Positions 1 to 41,492 of a stretch of 43,513 nucleotides of DNA are shown piece after piece. This DNA is from Planctomycetales bacterium (lineage in GTDB: Bacteria; Planctomycetota; Planctomycetia; Pirellulales; Lacipirellulaceae): the NCBI GenBank assembly GCA_020427145.1, contig JAGQOU010000089.1:1-43513 (forward strand), read 5' to 3'. Position numbers and translations under genes: made by a program. The notes beneath the pieces are model-generated. The model did no database searches, was not told the DNA's origin, and saw only the letters and a list, made by a program, of their open reading frames with translations. How positions within the stretch are numbered: the first letter of the stretch is position 1; each line of letters starts with the position of its first letter.

Positions 1-27
1 GCGAGCCGCGGCGTCTCGCCCGCGGCG
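1..27 (+). repeat. REP-like palindrome, copy 1
   Basis: This is a short hairpin-forming unit: a 7-bp stem GCCGCGG/CCGCGGC around an 8-base loop. It is repeated exactly in inverted orientation at 569-595, with two changes at 624-650 and with one change at 14197-14223. It sits just before the transposase-like gene that starts at 44. It may continue beyond the left edge of the window. Confidence 0.8.
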
Positions 28-43
28 AACCACAAAGCCCGCG

Positions 44-562
44 ATGACTTTCCCCCGTCAAACGCTCGATCCCTCGCGCACCACGTGGCACATCACTTGG
101 GGGACCTACGGCACGCGACTTCACGGGGGCGTCGCCCCGACGGTCGACAAACGGCACAATCGCCGCGGCGAGCCGTTTGTGTCGCGGAATCCCACTGTCG
201 AGAAGCTCGCGCGCCGATCGCTGAACTTCGACCCGGTGATCCTAACCCGCGAGCAGAGAGAACTCGCCGAGGAAGCGCTTCCGGCAATCTGCATCCGCGG
301 CGGCTGGACGTATCGCGGTTGCGCTGCGGGCGAGGACCACGTCCACGTGCTGTGCGACATCTTGCCGGACATCCACGGCGAGAAGGTGCGGCGGCTTTTG
401 AAACGATGGCTCGGTCAGAACATGAGCGACCAGTGGCCGCTGCCCGACGGAGCTCGTTGGTGGGCCGTGGAAGGCTCCAACAATGCGATTCACGACGAGG
501 CGTATCTCAACAACGCGTTCGGGTATATTGCACGGCAGCGATGCTTGAGGTTTGCGCCTTGA
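44..562 (+). CDS. RAYT-type (REP-associated tyrosine / IS200-like Y1) transposase
   Basis: This 172-residue protein resembles the single-domain Y1 HUH transposases that mobilise or maintain REP sequences. An N-terminal WHITWGTYGTRLHG strand (residues 15-28) is typical of the family. The metal-binding HUH pair is H99 and H101 in the motif EDHVHVL. The nucleophilic tyrosine is probably Y154 or Y161 in the stretch YLNNAFGYIARQR. The length is in the usual 140-200 residue range. REP-like hairpins lie on both sides (1-27, 569-595, 624-650), the classic RAYT arrangement, so the gene is more likely a domesticated REP handler than a free insertion sequence. No Shine-Dalgarno sequence stands out before the ATG. 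Activity cannot be judged from sequence. Confidence 0.8.
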   Translation: MTFPRQTLDPSRTTWHITWGTYGTRLHGGVAPTVDKRHNRRGEPFVSRNPTVEKLARRSLNFDPVILTREQRELAEEALPAICIRGGWTYRGCAAGEDHVHVLCDILPDIHGEKVRRLLKRWLGQNMSDQWPLPDGARWWAVEGSNNAIHDEAYLNNAFGYIARQRCLRFAP

Positions 563-568
563 AACGCG

Positions 569-595
569 CGCCGCGGGCGAGACGCCGCGGCTCGC
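569..595 (-). repeat. REP-like palindrome, copy 2 (inverted)
   Basis: This is the exact reverse complement of bases 1-27. It begins six bases after the transposase stop codon. Copies 1 and 2 therefore bracket the gene as an inverted pair, a REPIN-like arrangement. Confidence 0.8.
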
Positions 596-623
596 AACGC
601 AGTTCAATTCAACACAATTAAAT

Positions 624-650
624 GCGAGCCGCGGCGTCCCGACCGCGGCG
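624..650 (+). repeat. REP-like palindrome, copy 3
   Basis: It is in the same orientation as copy 1 with two loop-region substitutions; the 7-bp stem is preserved. Copies 2 and 3 form a head-to-head pair about 28 bp apart. The last base of this copy begins a GAGGT sequence (650-654) placed 7 nt before the ATG at 662, so the repeat borders the ribosome-binding site of the next gene. Confidence 0.75.
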
Positions 651-661
651 AGGTCGCTACT

Positions 662-1099
662 ATGCTCAGTTTTCACGCCAACATCTACGCACTGCCAGAG
701 CACGCCGCCCCCAGCGAGCCGCTGTCGCTGCGCGGCGAGTCGCTTGCCCCGCTGCGCGACGGGCAAGGGCGTCCGCCGATCTTCGAAACCTTCCTGCCGG
801 TCACCTTCGAAGCGGCCTACGACGCCCTGATCAAGCTGCCGCGGCTCGATGCGGAGCCCGACGGGTTTCTGGTGATTGCCGGCGACGCAGAAGGCCGACG
901 CTGGCAACTCGACGGGCACTTGTTCGACTTCGGCGACCGCCTGCACCGTCTGCAACTGCACGGCGAGTGCCCCGCCGACGCGCTGGACGACATCCTCCGC
1001 TGCCTCGGCTGGCCCGACGCACGCCTGGCGTTTGAGGTCATCACCGACGGCGTCGTGTTCGATGAACCGACGTTCCGCCGCTATGCCGCCAGTGCTTAG
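662..1099 (+). CDS. conserved-looking hypothetical protein (145 aa)
   Basis: I do not recognise the family. The product is soluble, has no signal peptide or membrane segment, and has mixed alpha/beta composition with many Asp, Leu and Arg residues. The start is supported by GAGGT at 650-654, 7 nt upstream of the ATG. It ends 45 bp from the convergent DUF707-like gene, with a GC hairpin at 1113-1127 between them. Codon use matches the neighbours and the overlapping frames look like shadows, so it is probably real. No function is proposed. Confidence 0.65.
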   Translation: MLSFHANIYALPEHAAPSEPLSLRGESLAPLRDGQGRPPIFETFLPVTFEAAYDALIKLPRLDAEPDGFLVIAGDAEGRRWQLDGHLFDFGDRLHRLQLHGECPADALDDILRCLGWPDARLAFEVITDGVVFDEPTFRRYAASA

Positions 1100-1112
1100 C
1101 GCGGTTTCTCAA

Positions 1113-1127
1113 GGGCGCAGGGCGCCC
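1113..1127. terminator. hairpin between convergent genes
   Basis: GGGCGC and GCGCCC pair around a 3-base loop, between the stop codons of the genes ending at 1099 (+) and 1145 (-). There is no T-run, so intrinsic termination is only suggested by the position. Confidence 0.35.
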
Positions 1128-1138
1128 GTGTCAGGGAC

Positions 1139-1153
1139 GGCGGCTCACGCCGC
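1139..1153. repeat. second REP-like motif (GGCGGCTCACGCCGC)
   Basis: An imperfect palindrome related to the inverted pair at 19090-19120 and 19159-19186. Here it overlaps the stop codon (1145-1147) of the minus-strand DUF707-like gene, which suggests that the insertion set or moved the end of that gene. Confidence 0.45.
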
Positions 1154-1927
1154 GCGGCGGCCCAACCAGTGGTCGAGACGCGAGCAGGTCCAGATCTTGT
1201 TGCCAGCTGGATCCACGCCCCGCAACCGGGCCGTATCGCGGACGATAGCGCGCGCGTGACGGCGGTTGTTGAGTCGGTATTGGCGGACGATCTGGTCATA
1301 GTCGTCGCCGGGCTTGACGCCCATTTCGGCAATCCGCTTGTAGATCTCGCCCGATTGCAGGGGCCGAGTGTGGTGAACAGGCGTGGCGTCGATCACGGCC
1401 AACTCTTCGGGGCCAAACAGCGACGACCAGACCCAGTCGATGCCCCACCCCGACCGATTGGCTGCGAACACCGGCAGCGTGCGGACGAGCGCCTTGCGTG
1501 AAAATAGCGGGCACATCATTTCAACAAACTGCGTGTAACGCAGCAGGTAGCCGTCGTGCGTCTTGAGCGCCTCGTAGCTGCAATCGCCCTGGCCGATCGC
1601 CGGTTGGCAAACCTGCAGGTGATAGTCGGCAGCGATGTCAAACAATTGATTGACGGTCGCCGTGTCGGCCGCGATATCGTCGTCGGCAAGCCAAAACTGA
1701 TCGTACTGCTCCAGCAAGTGCGCCAACTCGCCCTGAAAAAAGTTGTACAACAGCCGGTACTTGAGCCCCTTGCACTGCAGGTAGTACTCCCCGTCGCCGG
1801 ACCACTGCCCGGGCTGATCGCCGTAGTACACCAGACAGAGATCGAACCGCCGCGACTCAGGACCGGCAAGCCAGGTGGGGTGCTGCGATTCGTTGCCGAC
1901 GGCGCTCACGACAAGGTTCTTGCTCAT
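1145..1927 (-). CDS. DUF707-like protein, possible glycosyltransferase-fold enzyme
   Basis: The chosen ATG gives 260 residues starting MSKNLVVSAVG. A longer frame reaches to 2041, but its extra 38 residues are Arg- and Cys-rich and look non-coding. The pattern fits DUF707: an N-terminal strand, LAGPESRRFDLCLVYYGD (residues 20-37), QCKGLKYRLL (51-60), then FWLADDDIAAD with an acidic triplet D82-D84 that resembles the DxD nucleotide-sugar motif of GT-A glycosyltransferases. No signal peptide or membrane segment is seen. Sugar transfer is an inference from the acidic motif; the family has no firm biochemical role. The 3' end overlaps a REP-like motif. Confidence 0.65.
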   Translation of the reverse strand: MSKNLVVSAVGNESQHPTWLAGPESRRFDLCLVYYGDQPGQWSGDGEYYLQCKGLKYRLLYNFFQGELAHLLEQYDQFWLADDDIAADTATVNQLFDIAADYHLQVCQPAIGQGDCSYEALKTHDGYLLRYTQFVEMMCPLFSRKALVRTLPVFAANRSGWGIDWVWSSLFGPEELAVIDATPVHHTRPLQSGEIYKRIAEMGVKPGDDYDQIVRQYRLNNRRHARAIVRDTARLRGVDPAGNKIWTCSRLDHWLGRRAA

Positions 1928-2041
1928 AGCCAAGACGACCGTGCGAGGATGAAAGCGGGCGGATGGGCAGTCTTCGCCCCAGAACCGTCGGCAACCTCGG
2001 CGGGCCGATCGGCAAACTGCGCGCGTGCTTGTAGCAAACAC

Positions 2042-2094
2042 GGCGAAATGGCGAAATGGCGACGCAGGCGACGCGGGCGACGCAGGCGACGCGG
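2042..2094. repeat. short tandem repeats
   Basis: Two copies of an 8-base unit GGCGAAAT (2042-2057) are followed by four copies of a 9-base unit GCGACGCRG (2059-2094), alternating CAG and CGG endings. They lie between the DUF707-like gene and the end of the ABC-F gene. A slippage-prone spacer with no visible coding role. Confidence 0.7.
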
Positions 2095-2121
2095 CGGGCC
2101 AAAGAGAAATGCCCGGCGCTT

Positions 2122-3906
2122 TTAGCCTTCCAGCTGACTGCTAGCAGCGAGCCACTCTTCTTCCAGCGCCGCAAGCTCGCGAGTCAGCGTCGCCAGCTGC
2201 TCGTGGGCGCGGCGGGCTTCCGCCGGGTCGCTCAGGGCGAGCAGCTTGTCGCCCAACTCCCGCTTTTCGTCGTCGAGCTTGGCGATCTTCCGCTCGATCG
2301 ATTTGAGCTTCTTCTCCAGCTCGCGCTCCTCGCGCCCCGACAGCTTGCGTTTGCCGGCGCCGGTCGCGGGGACGCCTTCGGGAGCGGCGCAGTACGTCGC
2401 GTGTTCCGCCCGCAGGCCGTCCGCCAGCTCCTTGTGGACCCGGTACACGTAGTCGTCGTAGCTGCCGGGGTAACTCACAACCTTGCCGTTGACCACTTCC
2501 ACCACCTCGGTCGCCACGCGGTGCATGAAGTGGCGGTCGTGACTGGTAAAGATCACCGTGCCGGGGTAGCGGCACAGCGCCTCGGCCAGCGCCTCGACGG
2601 TTTCCACGTCGAGGTGGTTGCCCGGCTCGTCGAGCACCAGCACGTTGTGTTGCTCCAGCAACAGCCCGGCCAGCACCAGTCGGGCCCGCTCGCCGCCGCT
2701 GAGCACCTTGATCTTCTTTTCGACCAGGGCGCCGCTGAACAGAAAACTGCCGGCCACGCTCTTGATCTGCTGAATGGTCGTCCCCGGCGCCGCTTGGTAG
2801 TGCAGGTAGTCTTCTACCGTCCGATCGGCCGGCAGCGTCGTGTAAACGTGCTGCGCGTAAACGCCGATCTGGCAGCCGTGCCCCCATTTCAACGTGCCGG
2901 CCAACGGTTCCAGCGAACCCACCACGGTGCGCAGAAAAGTCGTCTTGCCCTGGCCGTTGTCGCCCACGACGCCCACGCGCGAGCCGTGCTCAATCTCCAG
3001 CTGCACGTCCTCGGCCACCGTGCGCTCGGGGTAGCCGATCGACAACTGCTCGATCCGCAGCGCCGTGCCCTGGCGGGCGTTGGCCGTGGGGAAGCTGAAG
3101 TGAGCGGTCGCCTCGTCGCCGGCGACCTCGACCAACTGCAACCGTTCGAGCTGCTTGGCCTTGCTGCGGGCCTGGCTGGCGGTGTTCGCGTTGGCGCGAT
3201 TCTTGGCGATAAACGTTTCCAGCTGCTTGCGCTTGGCGAGCGTGGCGGCGTTGGCCCGCTGGTCGTGCTCGCGGCGTTCCTCGAGGTTGGCCAGATAGCC
3301 GTCCACGTCGCCGGGGAACATCGTCAACTGGCCGCGAGACAGCTCCAGCGTGTGGGCGCAGGTTCGCTTGAGGAACTCGCGATCGTGCGACACGACCAGG
3401 CACCCGCCGCCGAAGCCGTCGAGAAACTCCTCCAGCAGCATCTGCGTGCGCAGGTCGAGAAAGTTCGTCGGTTCGTCGAGAATCAGCAAGTTGGGATCGT
3501 GCAGCAACAGGGCGGCCAGCTTCACGCGGGTTTGCCACCCGCCCGACAGCGAACGCACCTCCTGGTGGAGCATCGGCTCGGGCAGCTGAAACTGCCAGGC
3601 GATCTCGCCGCACCGCCACTCGGGCTGGCCGCTGTCGCGCTCGAGAAAATCGAGCACCGTTTCGCCATCGCGAAACGGGTCGTGCTGCCGCAGGTAGCCC
3701 AGCCGCAGTTTGCGGTTCTTGACCACCTCGCCGGCGTCCAGGTCTTCCTCCTCCAGCAGCAACCGGCAAAGCGTACTCTTGCCGGCGCCGTTGCGGCCAA
3801 TCAGGCCCACTTTCTGATCGTCGGTCAGCGCGCAGCTGGCGCCGTCGAGCAACGCTTGCTCGCCGTAACGCTTGTGGGCGTCTTGCAGTTGAAGAACGAC
3901 TGGCAT
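2122..3906 (-). CDS. ABC-F family ATPase (Uup/EttA-like)
   Basis: A 594-residue protein with two ABC ATPase domains and no membrane domain, the hallmark of ABC-F proteins, which act on ribosomes (translation factors or antibiotic-protection proteins) rather than in transport. Domain 1: Walker A GRNGAGKST (37-45), signature LSGGW (120-124), Walker B LLILDE (140-145). An interdomain linker rich in Arg, Lys and Glu spans about 190-260. Domain 2: Walker A GDNGQGKTT (315-323), signature LSGGE (402-406), Walker B with LDEPGNH (425-431), H-loop H456. The C-terminus (about 522-592) is a charged coiled coil as in Uup and many Arb types. The second Walker B is followed by GNH where TNH is usual. Which subfamily it belongs to cannot be settled here. 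It lies upstream of nothing obviously co-transcribed. Confidence 0.92.
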   Translation of the reverse strand: MPVVLQLQDAHKRYGEQALLDGASCALTDDQKVGLIGRNGAGKSTLCRLLLEEEDLDAGEVVKNRKLRLGYLRQHDPFRDGETVLDFLERDSGQPEWRCGEIAWQFQLPEPMLHQEVRSLSGGWQTRVKLAALLLHDPNLLILDEPTNFLDLRTQMLLEEFLDGFGGGCLVVSHDREFLKRTCAHTLELSRGQLTMFPGDVDGYLANLEERREHDQRANAATLAKRKQLETFIAKNRANANTASQARSKAKQLERLQLVEVAGDEATAHFSFPTANARQGTALRIEQLSIGYPERTVAEDVQLEIEHGSRVGVVGDNGQGKTTFLRTVVGSLEPLAGTLKWGHGCQIGVYAQHVYTTLPADRTVEDYLHYQAAPGTTIQQIKSVAGSFLFSGALVEKKIKVLSGGERARLVLAGLLLEQHNVLVLDEPGNHLDVETVEALAEALCRYPGTVIFTSHDRHFMHRVATEVVEVVNGKVVSYPGSYDDYVYRVHKELADGLRAEHATYCAAPEGVPATGAGKRKLSGREERELEKKLKSIERKIAKLDDEKRELGDKLLALSDPAEARRAHEQLATLTRELAALEEEWLAASSQLEG

Positions 3907-4007
3907 CGGGAGGGATCGGGGGCGGGAGGTCGGAAGTCGCGCGGCGGCGGGCAGACAACGTGATCGACAGCCGCGAGCTCACCAGCTCGCCGGCGGTGGG
4001 GCGCTCA

Positions 4008-27884: not shown

Positions 27885-30800
27885 GTGAAAAACCCCTGCC
27901 GACAACCTGACGATCGCGAGCGAGCGCTGCTTGAAGAAGCGGCCGGCTATCTCAACTTCTCCTCCGGGACAAGCGATACGCGGTTTCTCAATCGGCTGAG
28001 CGAGTTGTGGCGTTCGCTGGAGAGCGATCCTGCCGAAACGCCCGCGGTCGAGCGCTTTGCCGCGTGGCTCGGCGAGACCATCGACCGACTGGAAGCGACC
28101 GGCGGCGCCTTTGCCGACGTGACCCAAGCCCGCGGCGTCGTCTCGCTGCTGCCGGAACTGCTGGCGGCCTACCGCTTGTTTCACCGCGATCTGCTGCACC
28201 ATCAGCCGAACGAGGATCTGTGGCGGCCGTTCTTCATCGGCCGGGCGTGCGAGGCGCTGCTGCTGGAGGGTCCGCCGTGGGACGAGACGGATCGCATCCT
28301 CGACGGCGCCATTCATCGACTGAACGACTACGTCGGCTATCGCCCCGTGCCGCAACTCTCGGGCGACGCGCGGGCCGAGCCCTACCCGAACGAGTACGTC
28401 CGTCCCGTGCCGTTGTTCATTGCGGGGGCGGGCGTCGCCGCGGGTCGGTACGAGCGGCTGCTGTCGCGGGCGATGGAAATCCTGCGCTCGACCGACCCCG
28501 ACCTCTTGCAGCGCGCATGGTTCGATCTCGACCGCTTGGAGGAAATCTCGCTGGACCCGCGGGCATATGACTTCGATCACCCGGCCAATCGACGCCCGAA
28601 TTACCACTTTGGCATGTGGGATCCGTTTCAGATATCTGAGAGCGGCTACTACACGCGGTTCGTGCTGCAGCAGCTCACGCTCGACGCCTTGCTGAAGCGC
28701 TGCGAACAGAGCGGGCAGGACGAGGAGGATCACTTCGAAGAAGGCGCCGCGGTGTTGGCCGGCACCATGCTCATGGCCTCGGGCACCAGCGGCGACGGGC
28801 CGGGACGGCACGACTCCGAGACGACCCTCTCGACGCTGCTGCCCCATATCGCCGCCTATCGCGACGACTTCTACCAGCAGCAACTCGCCAAGACCGCCGG
28901 GCCGCTCGGCGAGCGACTGCGCGCCGAGGCCCAGAAGCGGCGGCAACCCTTCGGCGGAGCCCGGCAACACCTCAATCACGAACTCGCCCGCCGCCGCGCT
29001 ATGCAGCTGCAACGGGTCCACCTCGCGCTGCTCTTTGCGCGCATGGGACGCCGCGAAAGCGCCCTGCGACAAGCCGACGCTGTGCGCGTCGCGTCGGCGC
29101 GCATGCTCACCGCGATCTACTGCCGGCTGACCTCGGGGCACGACGCGCTCGATCGCAACGAACTCGCCACCGCGGCCGACAATCTGGCCGAAATCCAGGA
29201 GCTGCTCCACCGCGGCATTGAGTGCGGGGCCCTGGTCGACCCCTGGAACGTCGTCGGCTTCGCCGCCAACTACAGCCTGTTTCCCGCGTTGGAAAACACC
29301 GTACACGACTGGCGGGTCGACGAGCTGATCGAACTGGTCGAGCAGATCCTCGACCTGTGCGCCCGGGCGTGGAGCGAAGCGGCGGTCGTCGACGACTCGG
29401 CGCTGGAACAGAAGTTCAAGAAAATCCTCAACGACCTGGCCGGGTGGTGGGACCAATACGCCACCGCCACGGTCGAAGGCGTCCCGCGGCTGGTCGCCAA
29501 GGAAATCGAAGTCTCGTCCAACCTCGTGGCCGGGGCGCTCAACGCCTGGCACAAGTCGGGCGCCGCGGCCGGCGACGTCGGGTTCTGGGCGCTGTTCGTC
29601 GAGCAGTTCGATTCGTCCAAAGCGTTTCAACTGGTCGTCGAGGCCTTGCTCGATCACGGCGACGTGGTCGCGTCGCGCGCCCTGATGATGCAATGGGTGC
29701 ATCAGCGCTACCTCACGCCGCTCGACGACGGCGAGGTCTCCTGGCATCCGCTCGCGCTGCGGTGGCTCGCCCTGGTCGAACAGCAACAGCACGCCGACGG
29801 CGTCGATCGCTGGGACGAGGTCGCCAAGTTCTTTGCCTTTCTCGAAGCCAACGCCGAAGAGTACTGGCGGGCGCCCACCGAGCTGTTCGCCAACGACGGC
29901 CCCGAAATCGAAGACGACGACATCCCCTTTGGCGACGCCGACGAGGACGAGTACGACGACGAGGACGACGGCACGTACGGTGGCGACGACTTCTACGAAT
30001 ACGATTCCGAAGACAGCGCCTTTGAATACGACGAAGACGGTGGGGAAGAGGACGAGCTGTTCGGCGCCGCGTACGAGGAGATGGTCTACCGCGACAGCAC
30101 CGACGACGGCATCGAAGGCGATCTGGCCGACGACGGCTACGAACCGCTCCACAGCGAGTGGGAATACGAGGCCGATCGGCTGGAGCAACGGCTCGATTTT
30201 CTCAACACGGTCGCCCGACTGTGGAAACACTCGGCGATCACCTGGGGCGGCGCCGGCGAGGCGCCCGAGCGACGCGAGCTGCTCGACCAATGGCTGCGAC
30301 AGGCGGCCGCCAATCACCGGGGTTTGATCGAGCTGGTCGAAGACGTCCGCCAGCATAAGTTCTCCCCGCCCTCGGGGTCGCACGAGTCGTTGGTGGAATT
30401 CGACCGCCTGCGGACGATCAAAGAAGCGCTGGTGCAGAAGATCGTCGCCACCTGCGTCGACACCGCCGCGGCGGCCCGGCTGCTGATGACCACTCGCACC
30501 GACGCGGCGATCGCCGCCGCGGAATTCGGCGAGCCGATCGACGCCGTGTCGGTGCAGCTGATGCGGGCCGTGCTGGCCGGCGACCCGGAGGCGGCCCGAG
30601 GCGTGTGGAAGCCGTTTCTCGATTCGCTGCGCCCGCGACAACTGCTGTACATTCCGTATTCCCGCGGCGGCGAGCCGCGCAAAATCGTCATCGCTCGCGG
30701 CGTGCAGCGGCTCCTGCACGACCTGCTCAACTGGCTGCCCAAGCTCGGCCTGCTGCGCGAAACGTGCGAGTTGCTCGATCTGGCTCAGGACCTGGAGGGC

Positions 30801-31886
30801 GCCAATCCCGTGGGCCAGGGCGCGGTGACCGAGTTTGATCGCCTGTTTGAAACCGGCTACCAGGCCGTCGTCCGCGCGCTGGTCGCCGCGGCCGAGGCGT
30901 GGGACGAGCGGCTGCCCGCCGAGCAAGCCGACCAAATGCTTGTCGATTCGCTGCAACTGGTCACCGAACGGCAGTTGGAGCGGTGGCTCGCCCACAGTCG
31001 CACGCTGCGACTCAGCGTGGTCGAAAAGCTGGCCGATCCTGGCGATTGGCAGCGGTTCGTGCAATTCGTCGCCGACTATGGCGGCGACCTGTTCACGCAG
31101 AAGTTCCTCAGCCTGGGCAACCTCCGCGGCATCTTGCACCAGGGGGTCGAGGCCTGGATCGATCGCCTGTTGCGCGACGAGGAGCACGTCGAGAACCACC
31201 GCTTTCTGGCGGCCATCGACAATGCTATCCCCAAGCGGGTCGCGGTGGACATGCTCACCATCGCCATCGAAGCGGTGGTCGAAAACTATCGCACCTACCG
31301 CGACTACAACACCACGACCACCCAAAGCGATCACGGCGAAATGCTGTACGCCCTGGTCGACTTCCTGCGGCTGCGGGCCGGCTACGATCGCGTGGCGTGG
31401 AATCTCAAGCCCGTCGTGTGGGCCCACGAAATCCTCGTGCGGCACAATCGCAATCTCGCCGCCGAGATGTGGCGCCGCGCTTTCTCCGAGCGGACCGCCG
31501 ACGTGGCCGACGACCACGTCCGCAGGTTGACGGAGCTGTCGGCCGAGCACGGCATGCAACTGGCCACGATCAGCGACCGCGTGAGCGAGCGCTTCATCCG
31601 CCCGGCGATCATCGACCGCGTGCGCGCGATGGTCGCTCCGGCCATGCAGCGCGACGACAACGGCAGCGACGCGGCGTTTGCGATGCTCGAACGGGAGATC
31701 ACCGAACTGGCCAGCGAGCCCCACGGCGCCGGCCTCGACGTCCCCGACTGGCTGACCGCCCTGGAAGACGAAGTGACCGAAGCCCGCTCGCGGCTCACCC
31801 ACGTGTCGAGCGCCGACCGGCTGGCGCGCCGCATCGGACAGGTGCGATTGTCATGGGACGAGATCAATCGCCAGCTGGGCGAGTGA
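27885..31886 (+). CDS. giant helical protein of unknown function
   Basis: A 1333-residue soluble protein, the largest gene here. I do not recognise the family. It appears almost fully alpha-helical, rich in Leu, Glu and Arg, with repeat-like hydrophobic spacing. It has no signal peptide, membrane helix or nucleotide-binding motif that I could find. A very acidic linker covers about residues 670-760 (runs such as EDEYDDEDDGTYGGDDFYEY), splitting an N-terminal half (1-669) from a C-terminal half. The start is GTG at 27885, the first after an in-frame TGA; no good Shine-Dalgarno sequence is visible. Codon use is uniform. A long antisense frame is a shadow. It is flanked by an epimerase (divergent) and a glycosidase-like gene (convergent, 48-bp gap). 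Confidence 0.75.
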   Translation: MKNPCRQPDDRERALLEEAAGYLNFSSGTSDTRFLNRLSELWRSLESDPAETPAVERFAAWLGETIDRLEATGGAFADVTQARGVVSLLPELLAAYRLFHRDLLHHQPNEDLWRPFFIGRACEALLLEGPPWDETDRILDGAIHRLNDYVGYRPVPQLSGDARAEPYPNEYVRPVPLFIAGAGVAAGRYERLLSRAMEILRSTDPDLLQRAWFDLDRLEEISLDPRAYDFDHPANRRPNYHFGMWDPFQISESGYYTRFVLQQLTLDALLKRCEQSGQDEEDHFEEGAAVLAGTMLMASGTSGDGPGRHDSETTLSTLLPHIAAYRDDFYQQQLAKTAGPLGERLRAEAQKRRQPFGGARQHLNHELARRRAMQLQRVHLALLFARMGRRESALRQADAVRVASARMLTAIYCRLTSGHDALDRNELATAADNLAEIQELLHRGIECGALVDPWNVVGFAANYSLFPALENTVHDWRVDELIELVEQILDLCARAWSEAAVVDDSALEQKFKKILNDLAGWWDQYATATVEGVPRLVAKEIEVSSNLVAGALNAWHKSGAAAGDVGFWALFVEQFDSSKAFQLVVEALLDHGDVVASRALMMQWVHQRYLTPLDDGEVSWHPLALRWLALVEQQQHADGVDRWDEVAKFFAFLEANAEEYWRAPTELFANDGPEIEDDDIPFGDADEDEYDDEDDGTYGGDDFYEYDSEDSAFEYDEDGGEEDELFGAAYEEMVYRDSTDDGIEGDLADDGYEPLHSEWEYEADRLEQRLDFLNTVARLWKHSAITWGGAGEAPERRELLDQWLRQAAANHRGLIELVEDVRQHKFSPPSGSHESLVEFDRLRTIKEALVQKIVATCVDTAAAARLLMTTRTDAAIAAAEFGEPIDAVSVQLMRAVLAGDPEAARGVWKPFLDSLRPRQLLYIPYSRGGEPRKIVIARGVQRLLHDLLNWLPKLGLLRETCELLDLAQDLEGANPVGQGAVTEFDRLFETGYQAVVRALVAAAEAWDERLPAEQADQMLVDSLQLVTERQLERWLAHSRTLRLSVVEKLADPGDWQRFVQFVADYGGDLFTQKFLSLGNLRGILHQGVEAWIDRLLRDEEHVENHRFLAAIDNAIPKRVAVDMLTIAIEAVVENYRTYRDYNTTTTQSDHGEMLYALVDFLRLRAGYDRVAWNLKPVVWAHEILVRHNRNLAAEMWRRAFSERTADVADDHVRRLTELSAEHGMQLATISDRVSERFIRPAIIDRVRAMVAPAMQRDDNGSDAAFAMLEREITELASEPHGAGLDVPDWLTALEDEVTEARSRLTHVSSADRLARRIGQVRLSWDEINRQLGE

Positions 31887-33443: not shown

Positions 33444-33830
33444 GCTCACGTTCTCTTCTCCGCTCAAAATTTATCCACCGGAGGCAAGTCTCCAAGGACG
33501 CAACTCTTCCGACGATTCTGCCATGGTACACAAGCCCACCCCTCATGCGAGGCGGGCGTCGGGGCCGCTGCATTGGCCGTGCGTGACTCGCGTGCCGCGC
33601 GATCAATCGACACCTGGGGGTGACGAGAAAGGTCCATTTTTTTCGAACCGAGGCGAACGCGCTCGCGATAACCTGTGCATCGTCGGCCATACTACCGTCT
33701 GCTTGGGAACTGCCCTCATCACGCCGCCGTCGCGTGGGCAAAAAAAAGAGCGATTTGCAACGAGATTCTTTTTAAGGGCCGAGCGCCTCGTGCGTCTCAC
33801 CTCTTGGAACGCGGAAAGGCGGGGAAATGC
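33444..33830. other. divergent intergenic region with ECF-type promoter
   Basis: This 387-bp gap lies between the glycosidase-like gene (-) and the sigma factor gene (+). It contains the candidate promoter at 33706-33731, an A-run of eight at 33740-33747 and a TTTTT stretch at about 33770. No further gene is supported. Confidence 0.6.
33706..33731 (+). promoter_or_regulatory. candidate ECF sigma promoter (GGAACT-N16-CGTC)
   Basis: The -35 element GGAACT is at 33706-33711 and the -10 element CGTC at 33728-33731, with a 16-bp spacer, matching the general ECF promoter consensus. The sigma gene starts 99 bp downstream, so it could be autoregulated. Chance occurrence in GC-rich DNA is possible. 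Confidence 0.45.
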
Positions 33831-34394
33831 ATGTCGCAATCAGATCCTCGGCCGATCCCGCCAAAAACTCAGCCCGCCGACGAGGAGGCCGTCAACCGAC
33901 GAACAATCGACCGGCTGGTTGTCGACCACCTGCCGGCGGCTTTGGCATTTGCCCAGCGGCTTGCCGGCAACGCCGACGTCGCCGAAGACCTCGTCCAGGA
34001 GACGCTGTGCCGCGTGCTGCGGCAGTGGAAAAGCTATCGCGGCCAGGCTGCCTTCAAGACCTGGATGTTCCAGATCTTGTTGAACGCCGACCGCGATCGC
34101 CGGAGGCGGCAACGAAGCACCGACGACGTGCCGCAGGAACAACTGACAATTTACGCACCAAGCCCTCACCAGCGCGTGACGGCCGAGGAGCTTCGCGAAC
34201 AAATTCGCCGGGAGATCGCCCGCCTGCCGGACCGACAACGGGAGGTCGCGGTGCTGACCCTGGGCGAAGGCTATACGGCCGCTGAGTCGGCCGAGATTCT
34301 GGGAACCTCGGTGGCCAACGTGCAGACGTGCCTGCATTTGGCTCGCAAACGAATTGGAGCGGCGATCGGCCTCGACGACCTCGCCCCGAAGTGA
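33831..34394 (+). CDS. ECF-type RNA polymerase sigma factor
   Basis: A 187-residue sigma-70-family factor with only regions 2 and 4. Region 2 (about 32-93): LPAALAFAQRLAGNADVAEDLVQETLCRVL and KSYRGQAAFKTWMFQILLN. Region 4 (about 130-178): IARLPDRQREVAVLTLGEGYTAAESAEILGTSVANVQTCLHLARKRI with the helix-turn-helix. The start at 33831 has AAAGGCGGGG upstream; longer frames from 33675 are non-coding. It is the first gene of an operon: the next gene begins 1 bp after its stop. Target genes are unknown; an ECF-type promoter motif lies upstream. Confidence 0.9.
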   Translation: MSQSDPRPIPPKTQPADEEAVNRRTIDRLVVDHLPAALAFAQRLAGNADVAEDLVQETLCRVLRQWKSYRGQAAFKTWMFQILLNADRDRRRRQRSTDDVPQEQLTIYAPSPHQRVTAEELREQIRREIARLPDRQREVAVLTLGEGYTAAESAEILGTSVANVQTCLHLARKRIGAAIGLDDLAPK

Positions 34395-34395
34395 C

Positions 34396-35562
34396 ATGCC
34401 ACGACAAGATCTCCCACAATCGTCCGACGACAACGGCGACCAGACGCTCGACGAGTTGATTGCTCGCGCGCTGGCCGGCGACGGCGAACCGTTGCGGCTC
34501 GAACGGCTGCAGCAGTTTTGGGATCGCCAGTCCCGGCGGCGACGACGGCGATCGCTTCTGACGGCGATGACGGCCGCGGCAGCCTCGTTGTTGTTTGCGG
34601 GCTGGCTGATTGGTGGGCGTCGAACGGAGGCGCCCCCCTCGCCAGCGCATGTGGTCGAGCAACCTCTGCCGTCGCCGCGCGGACTGGCGTCGGCGGCGCC
34701 CGACGACGGAATGCCGACGACGAAACCCGCCGCTTCGCTCGCGGCGGGGCGACCGCCGACGGATTACGAGCGCTTGATGTTTTTCGCGCAAACCCGCTCG
34801 CCGCAGCCCCGGCGAACGCCCGACGAATTGCTGACTGAGGCGATCGACCGCCTGACGGCCAACCCGCAAGCGGATGTCCGCGACCTCACGGCTGACCTGC
34901 TCGCAAGCGATGGCGCGGACCCTGTGCGTCACGACTGGCAAGCGAAATTGCTGGCGGAGTTGCCCGACTCTGCGGGCGCACGTCGGGTGGCGGTCTGTCG
35001 CTTGCTGGCGGTCTATGGATCCGAGCGAGCAACGCCGGCGCTGCTGCAGGTTGCCGCCCGCGCGGGCCACCCTGCGGAAGTGCTGGACGCCATCGAAGCG
35101 ATTGCGGGCGTGGACCGCTGGCCGGCCATCGCCCGCCAGGCGCCGGACAGTCGCACGCGCCAGGCGATCGCGCAGCGTCTGCTGAGGGCCGACGCGGAAG
35201 GGGCGCTGCTGGCGTTTGTGGCGATGATCAACGACGAGACGCTGCGGAGCGACGCGCTCGCCGCCGCCCGGGACGAACAACAACTGCCCGTCCCGCGACT
35301 GCTGGCGCTTCTGGATCATGAACAAGCCTGGGTGCGACTCGCGGCCGCGAGGACGCTCGGCGAGACAAGCCGTTGCGAGATGACCGAGGCCCTGATTGCC
35401 CGCATTCGGAACCGGCCCTCCGGCTCGAAAGAAGCCTGGTTTGCGCTGCTCGCAAGCCAGTGCGAAGCCGCGGACGAGTTCGTCGCCCGCGCCGCGCGAG
35501 ACCCGCACTTGTTGGGACAGTTGAACAACGCCCGATTGCAGTGGTCGCGAACGATTCAGTGA
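34396..35562 (+). CDS. membrane-anchored HEAT-repeat-like protein, possible anti-sigma factor
   Basis: A 388-residue protein with a cytoplasmic N-terminus (1-52, ending in an RRRRRR run), one membrane helix (53-74), a Pro/Ala-rich stretch, and helical repeats (about 120-385) of HEAT type, for example TPALLQVAARAGHPAEVLDAIEAI and ALLDHEQAWVRLAAARTLGE. The gene starts 1 bp after the ECF sigma stop, the usual place of an anti-sigma factor. The short cytoplasmic part (DQTLDELIARALAGDGEPLRLERL) could bind sigma. It lacks a zinc-finger anti-sigma motif. Role inferred from position only. Confidence 0.75.
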   Translation: MPRQDLPQSSDDNGDQTLDELIARALAGDGEPLRLERLQQFWDRQSRRRRRRSLLTAMTAAAASLLFAGWLIGGRRTEAPPSPAHVVEQPLPSPRGLASAAPDDGMPTTKPAASLAAGRPPTDYERLMFFAQTRSPQPRRTPDELLTEAIDRLTANPQADVRDLTADLLASDGADPVRHDWQAKLLAELPDSAGARRVAVCRLLAVYGSERATPALLQVAARAGHPAEVLDAIEAIAGVDRWPAIARQAPDSRTRQAIAQRLLRADAEGALLAFVAMINDETLRSDALAAARDEQQLPVPRLLALLDHEQAWVRLAAARTLGETSRCEMTEALIARIRNRPSGSKEAWFALLASQCEAADEFVARAARDPHLLGQLNNARLQWSRTIQ

Positions 35563-35658
35563 AAGCGATTGGACAGACCTGCAGCGACGGCGAGCGCCGG
35601 GGCGCGGGGCGCACGGCATTCGGGGCGCTGCGGGCGTGACTTTGGGTTCTTAACTCTT

Positions 35659-35663
35659 GGAGG
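35659..35663 (+). promoter_or_regulatory. Shine-Dalgarno site deciding the secretin-like start
   Basis: GGAGG (followed by A) lies 1 nt before an ATG at 35665 and 7 nt before the ATG at 35671. The spacing favours 35671. Confidence 0.75.
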
Positions 35664-35670
35664 AATGGCA

Positions 35671-36906
35671 ATGCGTAGTCTCTCTCTGGTAGTCGTCGCG
35701 GTGGCGGGGATCGCTGCATTGGAAGCGCACGCTCAGCAAGGTCGCAATCCGGGTGCGGAACAGTACGAGCTGCGCACCTACGACATCGCCGACCTGATTC
35801 TGACAATTCACGATCACCCGTACCCCGGCGAGCCGTCAAAGACGACGGGGCGCGTCCCCAGCGGCAGTTTTGGCGGTAGCGGAGGCGGACTGGGCGCAAA
35901 CGTTCAAGACCCTCGTTCGCCCGTTCAATTTGCCCAGTTCGGCGGAGGCGGAGGCGAATTCGGAAGAGGCGGGGGGCGCGGCTATGGCCCACCGGCCGCG
36001 GCGAACGAGACGAATGGGATGAACGTGACGGTGGACGACGTGATGGGCGCCATCGTCGAAACGATCGAACCCGAGACTTGGGAAGAAAAGCGCGGAGGCG
36101 CAGCGCAAGGCGCGGGACGGATCGCGCGCGTCGGGGCGGCGTTGGTGATCTGGCAAACGCAGCAAGTGCATGAGCAAATCGCCGAGCTGCTCCGCGCCCT
36201 TCACTCCAGCGCGGGAAGCCGCAAGACGTTGCGAATCGACGCTCGTTGGCTGTTGCTCACGTCCGATGAACTCGATGCGCTCCTCTCGGGCGAGAACTCG
36301 AGCGTCGATCGCAAGACGCTCGATCGCCTCACGCGACGCCCCACCAGCATCCGCGGCGTCACGAACTGTTTTAGCGGACAACTGACGTACCTGGTGAGCG
36401 GCACGCGCCGCAACGTCGTGCAAGGCTATATTCCCGTGGTCGGCAGCATCGACAGCACGGCGCCGGACGCCACGCAGTGGGCCGGTGGAGACGGCCCGGT
36501 GATTTCGCTGGTTTCAGAGCAAACGGAGTTTGCGCCGAGCCGGGGCGTCGGCTATCAGCCCCTGGTGAGCACGCCCAATTTTGGCGCCCTGTTGGAAATC
36601 CGGCCGACGCTGGTCCACGGAGACGATCGCGTCACCGTCGATTTGAAGTCGACCATCACGGCGCTCGGCGCGCCGGACGACGCCGCGGCAAACCAGTGGG
36701 AATCAACCGGCGGAGCCCCGGCGGTTGATCGCAGTGCGATCGAAACCCAGGAGTTCGCGACCACGCTCAGGACGCCGCTGGGCGAGCCGCTGCTGGTCGG
36801 GGGGATGACTTGCTCTCCCGGCGTCGGCGAGTTCGATCCCGCCGGAACCCCAGCCGGCGAAAGCCGCGAGGCGCCGCAGCTCTATTTGGTGCTTGAGGTG
36901 CAGTGA
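35671..36906 (+). CDS. exported secretin-like protein
   Basis: A 411-residue protein with signal peptide 1-21 (LVVVAVAGIAALEAHA). After YELRTYDIADLILTIHD, a Gly-rich low-complexity stretch covers about 65-110. A region with NVTVDDVMGAIVETIEPETWEE and VIWQTQQVHEQIAELLRAL resembles the ring-building N-domains of type II secretion secretins. The C-terminal part has LLEIRPTLVHGDDRVTVDLKSTI, reminiscent of the secretin core, but the protein is too short for a full secretin. Function unknown. It lies 108 bp after the HEAT-like gene on the same strand, in the ECF operon. Its low-complexity stretch suggests surface exposure. Confidence 0.7.
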   Translation: MRSLSLVVVAVAGIAALEAHAQQGRNPGAEQYELRTYDIADLILTIHDHPYPGEPSKTTGRVPSGSFGGSGGGLGANVQDPRSPVQFAQFGGGGGEFGRGGGRGYGPPAAANETNGMNVTVDDVMGAIVETIEPETWEEKRGGAAQGAGRIARVGAALVIWQTQQVHEQIAELLRALHSSAGSRKTLRIDARWLLLTSDELDALLSGENSSVDRKTLDRLTRRPTSIRGVTNCFSGQLTYLVSGTRRNVVQGYIPVVGSIDSTAPDATQWAGGDGPVISLVSEQTEFAPSRGVGYQPLVSTPNFGALLEIRPTLVHGDDRVTVDLKSTITALGAPDDAAANQWESTGGAPAVDRSAIETQEFATTLRTPLGEPLLVGGMTCSPGVGEFDPAGTPAGESREAPQLYLVLEVQ

Positions 36907-39848: not shown

Positions 39849-39917
39849 ACCGCCGGCGACGCCATGTCGTCTTGCCGCCCCTCTGGCCGTTTTCCGCAAA
39901 TCCCGCCGCACGCCGCC

Positions 39918-41492
39918 ATGCCGATCGATCCCGCCGCTCCTGCCGTGAAGGTGCGCCGTTGGCGCGCATCCGACGTGCCCGCCTTGGTGGCGCTGCAACG
40001 CGCCGCGTACCCGAACATCGCCCGCGAAAGCCTGCAGGACGAGCGCAAGCTCAAAATGCAGCAGAAGGCGTTCCCCGAAGGGCAGTTGCTCGCCGAGGTC
40101 GACGGGCGGATCGTCGCCTACGCCACGTCGCTCATCGTGCAACTCGCCGACGACTCGCCGTGGTACTCCTACGACGAGATCACCGGCGTGGGCACCTTCA
40201 GCACGCATACTCCCAGCGGCGATACGCTGTACGGGTCGGACATCGCGGTGCATCCCGACTTTCGCGGACGGGGGGTCGCGCAGCAGCTCTACAAACGGCG
40301 CAAGGCGCTGTTGCGGCGGTTGGGGCTGCGGCGGATGGTCGCCGGCGGGCGGATTCCCGGCTACGCCGAGGTCGCCAAGAAAATGACGCCCGCCGAGTAT
40401 GTGGCGTCGGTCGAGCGGGGCGAACGCAAGGATCCCGCGCTGTCGGCCCACCTGCGCGCCGGGTACAAGGTCCTAGGCGTACACTTTGCGTATCTCAACG
40501 ACGCCGAGAGCATGAGCTACGCGACGTTCCTGGAAATGCCCAACCCGAAGTTTGACGAAGCCCGGCAGCAGATTTCCGCAGCGCCCATCCGTCGGTCGGT
40601 TCGCCGCGTACGGGTTTGCGCGGCCCAGTACCAGATGCGCCCCATCACGTGTTGGGACGACCTGGAGCGGCAAGTCCACTTCTTCGCCGAAACGGCCAAC
40701 GAGTACCACTGTCACTACTTGCTGATGCCCGAGCTGTTCACGGCGCAACTGTTCAGCACGCTGCCGCGCGACATCCCCTCGCGCGAAGCGGTGCTGGAAG
40801 TCGCCGCCTACGCCGAGGACTATCGCCGGATGTTCCTCCAACTGGCGGCCAAATTCAACCTGTTCATCATCGGCGGGTCGACGCCGGTGGTGGTCGACGG
40901 CGAGCTGCAGAACATCGCCCATCTGTTCACGCCCAGCGGCAACGTTTACCAGCAGGAAAAGCTGCACATCACCAGCGTCGAACGCCACTGGTACAACATC
41001 CAGCCCGGCGACAAGCTGCGCGTGTTCGACACGCCGCTGGGGCGCATCGGCATTGCCGTTTGCTACGACGTGGAGTTCCCCGAACTGATTCGGTTGCTGG
41101 CGCTCAACGGCATCGAAATCTTGTTCGTCCCCTTCGCCACCGACGAACGCAAAAGCTACTGCCGCGTCCGCCACTGCGCCCAGGCCCGCGCCGTCGAGAA
41201 CGTGATTTACGTGGTGCTGTCCGGCTGCGTCGGCAATCTGCCGCAGGTCAACAGCTTTCTGATCAACTACGGCCAGGCCGCCATCTGCACGCCGTGCGAC
41301 GTGCCGTTCCCCAAGGACGGCATCCTGGCCGAGGCCGAGCCGAACTGCGAAACGGTCGTGGTGGCCGAGATCGACCTGAGCAGCCTGGTGCAGCACCGCG
41401 ACATCGGCAGCGTACTGCCGCTACAAAACCGGCGGCGCGACCTGTACGACCTGACGCCCCGCACGCCTGTCGAGGTGGTGACGGTGCAGTGA
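39918..41492 (+). CDS. bifunctional GNAT acetyltransferase / carbon-nitrogen hydrolase
   Basis: A 524-residue fusion. N-terminal GNAT domain (about 10-205) with acetyl-CoA motif VHPDFRGRGVAQQLY (111-125). C-terminal nitrilase-superfamily domain (about 230-515) with an intact triad: E272 in LLMPELFTA, K348 in QQEKLHIT and C382 in IAVCYDVEFPE. The hydrolase cleaves non-peptide C-N bonds such as amides; the acetyltransferase could prepare or protect the substrate. NCBI-type annotations already know this fusion. The ATG at 39918 was preferred; another in-frame ATG is at 39864. A palindromic element follows the stop at 23 bp. Confidence 0.88.
   Translation: MPIDPAAPAVKVRRWRASDVPALVALQRAAYPNIARESLQDERKLKMQQKAFPEGQLLAEVDGRIVAYATSLIVQLADDSPWYSYDEITGVGTFSTHTPSGDTLYGSDIAVHPDFRGRGVAQQLYKRRKALLRRLGLRRMVAGGRIPGYAEVAKKMTPAEYVASVERGERKDPALSAHLRAGYKVLGVHFAYLNDAESMSYATFLEMPNPKFDEARQQISAAPIRRSVRRVRVCAAQYQMRPITCWDDLERQVHFFAETANEYHCHYLLMPELFTAQLFSTLPRDIPSREAVLEVAAYAEDYRRMFLQLAAKFNLFIIGGSTPVVVDGELQNIAHLFTPSGNVYQQEKLHITSVERHWYNIQPGDKLRVFDTPLGRIGIAVCYDVEFPELIRLLALNGIEILFVPFATDERKSYCRVRHCAQARAVENVIYVVLSGCVGNLPQVNSFLINYGQAAICTPCDVPFPKDGILAEAEPNCETVVVAEIDLSSLVQHRDIGSVLPLQNRRRDLYDLTPRTPVEVVTVQ

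Follow-up and report, generated by a model that had tools for sequence, protein, structure and literature searches.

A conserved planctomycete operon encoding an ECF sigma factor, a HEAT-repeat membrane protein and a secretin-like protein suggests a self-contained envelope-sensing circuit

The stretch of DNA analysed here (the window, 43,513 nucleotides) is contig JAGQOU010000089.1 of the Planctomycetales bacterium assembly GCA_020427145.1 (Lacipirellulaceae), one contig (525) out of an incomplete 5.86 Mb genome. It carries three genes arranged head to tail, which encode an extracytoplasmic function (ECF) sigma factor, a single-span HEAT-repeat protein and an exported secretin-like protein (Table 1). 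The same triad, in the same order and on the same strand, is present in 33 Planctomycetia genomes (the window counted), and this gene order is real and conserved. The locus is probably an autoregulated ECF sigma factor/membrane anti-sigma factor operon, in which the HEAT protein acts both as inhibitor and as sensor, and its composition suggests a self-contained envelope-sensing circuit.

Table 1. Positions of the operon features in the window
Feature	Position	Strand	Basis
-35-like block TTTTTAAG (consensus TTTTGAGATT)	33769..33776	+	Position weight matrix from 24 orthologous upstream regions
-10-like block GCGTCTCA (consensus GCGTCTAA)	33792..33799	+	Same conserved promoter motif analysis
Minimal ECF sigma factor, 187 aa, regions 2 and 4, without C-terminal extension	33831..34394	+	Pfam, NCBIfam, solved relatives
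Single-span HEAT-repeat protein, 388 aa, candidate anti-sigma factor	34396..35562	+	HEAT_2 in orthologues, AlphaFold 2 solenoid, position after the sigma gene
Cytosolic N-terminal segment, residues 1-53, candidate sigma-binding	34396..34554	+	Invariant Trp42, predicted helices, co-variation
Transmembrane helix, residues 54-72, N-terminus inside	34555..34611	+	Positive-inside rule
Extracytoplasmic HEAT alpha-solenoid, residues 121-388	34756..35559	+	AlphaFold 2 model, structure comparison
Exported secretin-domain protein, 411 aa (signal peptide, secretin N-type domain, Gly-rich linker, short secretin domain)	35671..36906	+	Foldseek, Z-score, Pfam

An earlier interpretation of this DNA, made from its letters only (the sequence-only reading), had proposed an ECF sigma gene whose stop lies 1 bp from a gene for a single-span, HEAT-repeat-like protein in the anti-sigma position, followed by a gene for a secretin-like exported protein, and all of these assignments are upheld by the data below. 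A survey of the gene order, which had also been proposed, returned the 33 genomes; the count is derived from profiles of all three proteins run on larger stretches, and several loci are cut by contig ends. In the window the ATG of the HEAT gene (34396) is located 1 bp past the TGA of the sigma gene (34392-34394). In 26 of the 31 measurable loci the HEAT gene starts between -30 and +25 bp from the sigma stop, the two genes usually overlapping or lying no more than 25 bp apart. Within the order, a protein search for the HEAT protein recovered distant relatives, the majority of which adjoin a homologous sigma gene and a homologous third gene, and divergent copies of the operon occur in a subset of genomes from another family in the class. 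When the reading frames around the triads were compared all against all, no further gene family proved common to the loci; the only recurrences were frames antisense to the three genes and families scattered over 3-4 loci. Among these neighbouring frames no anti-sigma-like gene besides that of the HEAT protein is kept near the triad.

The HEAT protein is patchily distributed, being present in 31 of the 396 genomes of the order. Apart from the copy in the window itself, a sample of 294 genomes of the phylum contained a single partial match and no full-length relative outside the class, and no relative was found in the viral contigs searched. Within the sequences covered, the triad is found only in some planctomycete bacteria. 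In Aeoliella straminimaris (L096, G099:C6) an intact secretin-like gene remains, whereas the sigma gene is absent, as is most of the HEAT gene; here the operon has been partly lost in nature.

The sigma factor contains the domains Sigma70_r2 (2e-15, 56.7 bits) and Sigma70_r4_2 (5e-11, 42.6 bits), both over the Pfam cut-offs, and matches the NCBIfam sigma70-ECF model (1e-27). AlgU, SigE, SigW and CnrH are among the solved structures closest to it. A search of the window's genome with the sigma profile gave 21 further matches, the best scoring 89 bits versus 246 for the sigma factor of the operon.

Upstream of the sigma gene lies a promoter-like element which is conserved and nearly specific to the operon. 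A two-block matrix applied to the orthologous upstream regions converges on TTTTGAGATT, a gap of 12-13 bp and GCGTCTAA; in the window the element reads TTTTTAAG-N15-GCGTCTCA and ends 31 bp before the sigma ATG. In leave-one-out runs 22 of the 24 loci, the window among them, returned the same site with a score exceeding all 200 shuffles. The exceptions are L068, which gave a different site, and L065, which failed, probably because its sigma start is misplaced; the L065 genome does hold the promoter site, found by pattern search. When ten extra loci that had no part in building the matrix were scored, eight were above all 300 shuffles, one was borderline and one was without the element.

The pattern TTTGAGWTN15-16GTCTMA matched ten times in 48 genomes, nine of these matches being at the triad operon, and a lineage variant with at most one mismatch matched four times in 12 genomes, always at the operon and never in genomes that lack it. 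The exact window element is unique within the window's genome. Searches with two mismatches returned scattered matches at about the level of a reversed-pattern control, and looser patterns added only background. The element TTTTTAAG-N15-GCGTCTCA is thus a conserved and real candidate promoter of the operon, and from the sequence data we infer that the sigma factor recognises promoters of the TTTTGAGATT-N12/13-GCGTCTAA type and drives essentially its own operon. Because the strict genome-wide patterns match almost only the triad operon, the sigma factor probably controls its own expression and has an almost private regulon. An autoregulated two-block promoter upstream of an ECF sigma gene is common but not universal. 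The sequence-only reading had placed the promoter 63 bp further upstream, at GGAACT-N16-CGTC (33706-33731), and GGAAC is indeed a common -35 element of ECF promoters; recognition of this site by the sigma factor is highly improbable, since it is a chance-level match (GGAACT-N15..17-CGTC occurs once in the window versus 0.28 expected, and at least once in 27 of 100 shuffles) and is absent at all 23 orthologous sigma loci inspected.

The HEAT protein contains one transmembrane helix with nine Lys/Arg residues on its N side. Because an arginine run precedes this helix, the N-terminus should be cytosolic and the solenoid outside, and the same single-pass topology with the N-terminus inside (N-in) is predicted in nearly all orthologues. 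In the AlphaFold model helices at residues 18-26 and 32-73, the second including the membrane span, are followed by a disordered linker and an alpha-solenoid (residues 123-387), which is mostly modelled with a predicted local distance difference test score (pLDDT) of >90. The Pfam HEAT_2 match is sub-threshold in the window protein and reaches E<=0.1 in 18 of 22 orthologues (best 2.6e-12). Tandem antiparallel helix pairs modelled as a solenoid, together with the HEAT profile similarity, argue for a HEAT-repeat protein; structure comparison of the solenoid returned designed HEAT repeats, spliceosomal SF3b and TOG domains, with the middling scores expected for a repeat fold. At one locus (L145, G547:C26) one search with the HEAT profile reports an internal TAA, yet a 412-aa open frame spans the profile.

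The cytosolic segment carries the motif LDxLLxxA...RLxxxW followed by the Arg run, and Trp42 is invariant in 20 N-termini. No Hx3Cx2C zinc motif is present, the N-terminus of the window protein being devoid of any Cys or His, and none of 22 members matches an anti-sigma Pfam domain. The predicted plan of this region (pLDDT 50-76), a short two-helix cytosolic segment beside an N-in transmembrane helix, is that of class II anti-sigma factors. Proteins of this class (CnrY/NepR-like) embrace sigma2 and sigma4 and block binding to RNA polymerase. By analogy and on the model, the HEAT protein suits the role of a minimal CnrY-like anti-sigma factor. Its position beside the sigma gene in 33 genomes, the N-in topology, the conserved short cytosolic segment and the co-variation described below make it likely that the HEAT protein inhibits the sigma factor.

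Co-variation was assessed as the partial rank correlation of distances in 29 paired sets, allowing for the other two parts. The cytosolic segment of the HEAT protein correlates with the sigma factor at 0.35-0.43 versus 0.10-0.17 with the third protein, while its periplasmic part, the solenoid, correlates with the third protein at 0.51-0.53 versus 0.22-0.27 with the sigma factor. This pattern would be expected if the HEAT protein contacted the sigma factor inside and the product of the third gene outside; it is suggestive only, because bootstrap support is 0.79-0.97.

Several observations weigh against the proposed inhibitor and sensor. The AlphaFold confidence of the N-terminal segment is just 50-76, and this segment displays no meaningful sequence similarity to solved PDB chains, CnrY included (an hhalign comparison with CnrY gave a probability of 4.8, with only the hydrophobic membrane part aligned). 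The co-variation is drawn from 29 related rows with the modest bootstrap support given above, and the strict patterns used in the search for other promoter sites could miss divergent targets.

The third protein carries a signal peptide, and its fold was assigned by structure comparison, since a PDB sequence search with the secretin-like profile returned just low-complexity Gly-rich matches and was uninformative. The first 29 PDB matches of the gene 3 model in Foldseek are all secretins (E down to 1.7e-7), and realignment to GspD gave Z 11.2 over 176 residues at 3.6 A, for a model with a mean pLDDT of only 51.5. Pfam Secretin is matched at E<=0.1 in 11 of 14 members, the window protein being under the curated cut-off. 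The modelled fold over residues 26-411 resembles that of the secretins GspD, PilQ, InvG and pIV, and the segments IPVVG, G-x-LLEIRPTL and ATTLR...VGG are likewise secretin-like. Unlike secretins, however, the protein is short, has a Gly-rich linker and lacks the VPxLGxIPxLGxLF-type C-terminal signature in all 14 members; because this signature is missing the product is called secretin-like rather than a secretin, and it is a candidate pore only. Four full-length secretin-like genes (L082:7396-8874, L083:5177-6793, L090:7243-8808 and L091:7673-9064) represent a separate paralogue, which has a coiled-coil N-terminus and adjoins no sigma or HEAT gene. The N-domain of the third protein recurs in a giant open reading frame (ORF) of 1100-2100 aa in most genomes of the class. 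The giant secretin of the window's genome (L095, G000:C513:1-8000, minus-strand ORF 2-3961) comprises 1320 aa with a C-terminal Pfam Secretin domain (1.3e-21).

In the proposed mechanism the sigma factor would recognise the TTTTGAGATT-N12/13-GCGTCTAA-type promoter and switch on its own operon, while the HEAT protein would keep it inactive through the cytosolic N-terminus of about 50 residues, whose two short helices probably wrap the sigma factor in the manner of CnrY and other class II anti-sigma factors. The extracytoplasmic HEAT solenoid would be the sensing part: its binding or losing an envelope partner would release the sigma factor, and more of all three proteins would be made. The partner would most simply be the gene 3 product or an envelope structure which that product joins, and the circuit would then be a closed homeostatic loop. 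That the HEAT protein senses the secretin-like product or its assembly is speculative and can be proposed only tentatively; equally tentative is the complete version, a one-promoter sigma factor in a closed loop, in which the HEAT anti-sigma factor directly monitors the occupancy or assembly of the secretin-like protein from the same operon.

It is a plausible, though not the favoured, alternative that the HEAT protein is an anti-sigma factor whose solenoid responds to a different envelope signal (cell-wall, lipid or surface ligand), the secretin-like protein being the output or effector. The signal sensed by most ECF systems differs from what they produce, and gene 3 is the sole non-regulatory gene linked to the promoter. 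The periplasmic HEAT part and gene 3, however, co-vary most strongly of the pairs compared, which is expected if they touch and counts weakly against this alternative.

The co-variation of the HEAT C-terminal part with gene 3 would also agree with a structural role, in which the HEAT protein is an assembly or piloting subunit of a secretin-like complex, its N-terminal helices anchor or dock it, and the sigma factor is simply an autoregulated activator of the HEAT gene and gene 3, controlled through its own level or by a protein whose gene is unlinked. Among known secretin pilotins, alpha-solenoid (TPR) proteins are common. Nevertheless, this explanation is unlikely: the cytosolic segment is conserved more than an anchor requires (invariant Trp, LDxLL) and co-varies with the sigma factor above gene 3, in Aeoliella the sigma gene and the 5' part of the HEAT gene are both missing while gene 3 persists, and anti-sigma genes usually sit directly after their sigma gene, as the HEAT gene does. 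A still less probable arrangement is that gene 3 modulates the giant planctomycete secretin, of which there is nearly one per genome, with the operon serving as a monitor of that channel's state; the shared N-domain and the full Pfam Secretin domain of the window genome's giant ORF agree with it, but almost every genome of the class has the giant protein, in contrast to the patchy operon, and no linkage between the two was seen.

Among characterised systems, one of the closest to the proposed HEAT anti-sigma arrangement is CnrH-CnrY-CnrX of Cupriavidus metallidurans, an ECF sigma factor, a class II membrane anti-sigma factor and a periplasmic sensor. CnrY likewise has a short two-helix cytosolic segment before one transmembrane helix, and its two helices embrace the sigma factor (PMC4598750). 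The sigma factor, the membrane inhibitor (predicted here) and an extracytoplasmic protein are encoded together in both systems; the gene order is different and no sequence similarity was detected. CnrY is almost without a periplasmic domain, whereas the planctomycete protein has a HEAT solenoid of about 270 residues, and CnrX is a metal sensor, whereas the third planctomycete protein is secretin-like. Because no sequence similarity was detected, the likeness to CnrY is one of working, not of membership; CnrY and NepR have no primary sequence similarity to each other either (PMC4598750). The class I systems AlgU-MucA-MucB and sigmaE-RseA-RseB share the logic of sigma factor, single-span anti-sigma factor and exported partner, and AlgU and sigmaE are among the closest solved relatives of the planctomycete sigma factor. 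The planctomycete HEAT protein departs from these in its cytosolic segment, which lacks the length needed for a class I domain and matches none in Pfam, and in its sensor domain, a HEAT solenoid instead of a MucA/RseA-like domain; its proposed partner is secretin-like.

The sequence-only reading had seen a new type of sigma control in this locus. The control type itself is already known; the locus is better described as adding a new sensor domain, the HEAT repeat, to it. In the literature searched, no HEAT solenoid appeared as the extracytoplasmic part of an anti-sigma factor. Nor did this literature, in which the main planctomycete ECF classification papers were not covered, contain a description of the sigma–HEAT pairing. 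Planctomycetes have many ECF sigma factors (22 matches in the window's incomplete genome), whose signals are mostly not established, and the operon provides one of them with a candidate partner, a candidate promoter sequence and a single evident target. Such a compact circuit could reveal how planctomycetes monitor secretin-type envelope proteins. If the closed loop is true, the cell would regulate an envelope component in response to the occupancy or the assembly of that same component.

Other ECF genes of the window's genome also precede N-in membrane proteins with different cytosolic segments; at L156, L157 and L158 the proteins after the sigma gene are single-span and their outer domains are varied. 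Elsewhere in the window, a plus-strand ORF of 1333 residues (27885-31886) contains a long acidic tract and has no Pfam match, and a single plus-strand ORF (39864-41492) encodes a GNAT acetyltransferase fused to a carbon-nitrogen hydrolase.

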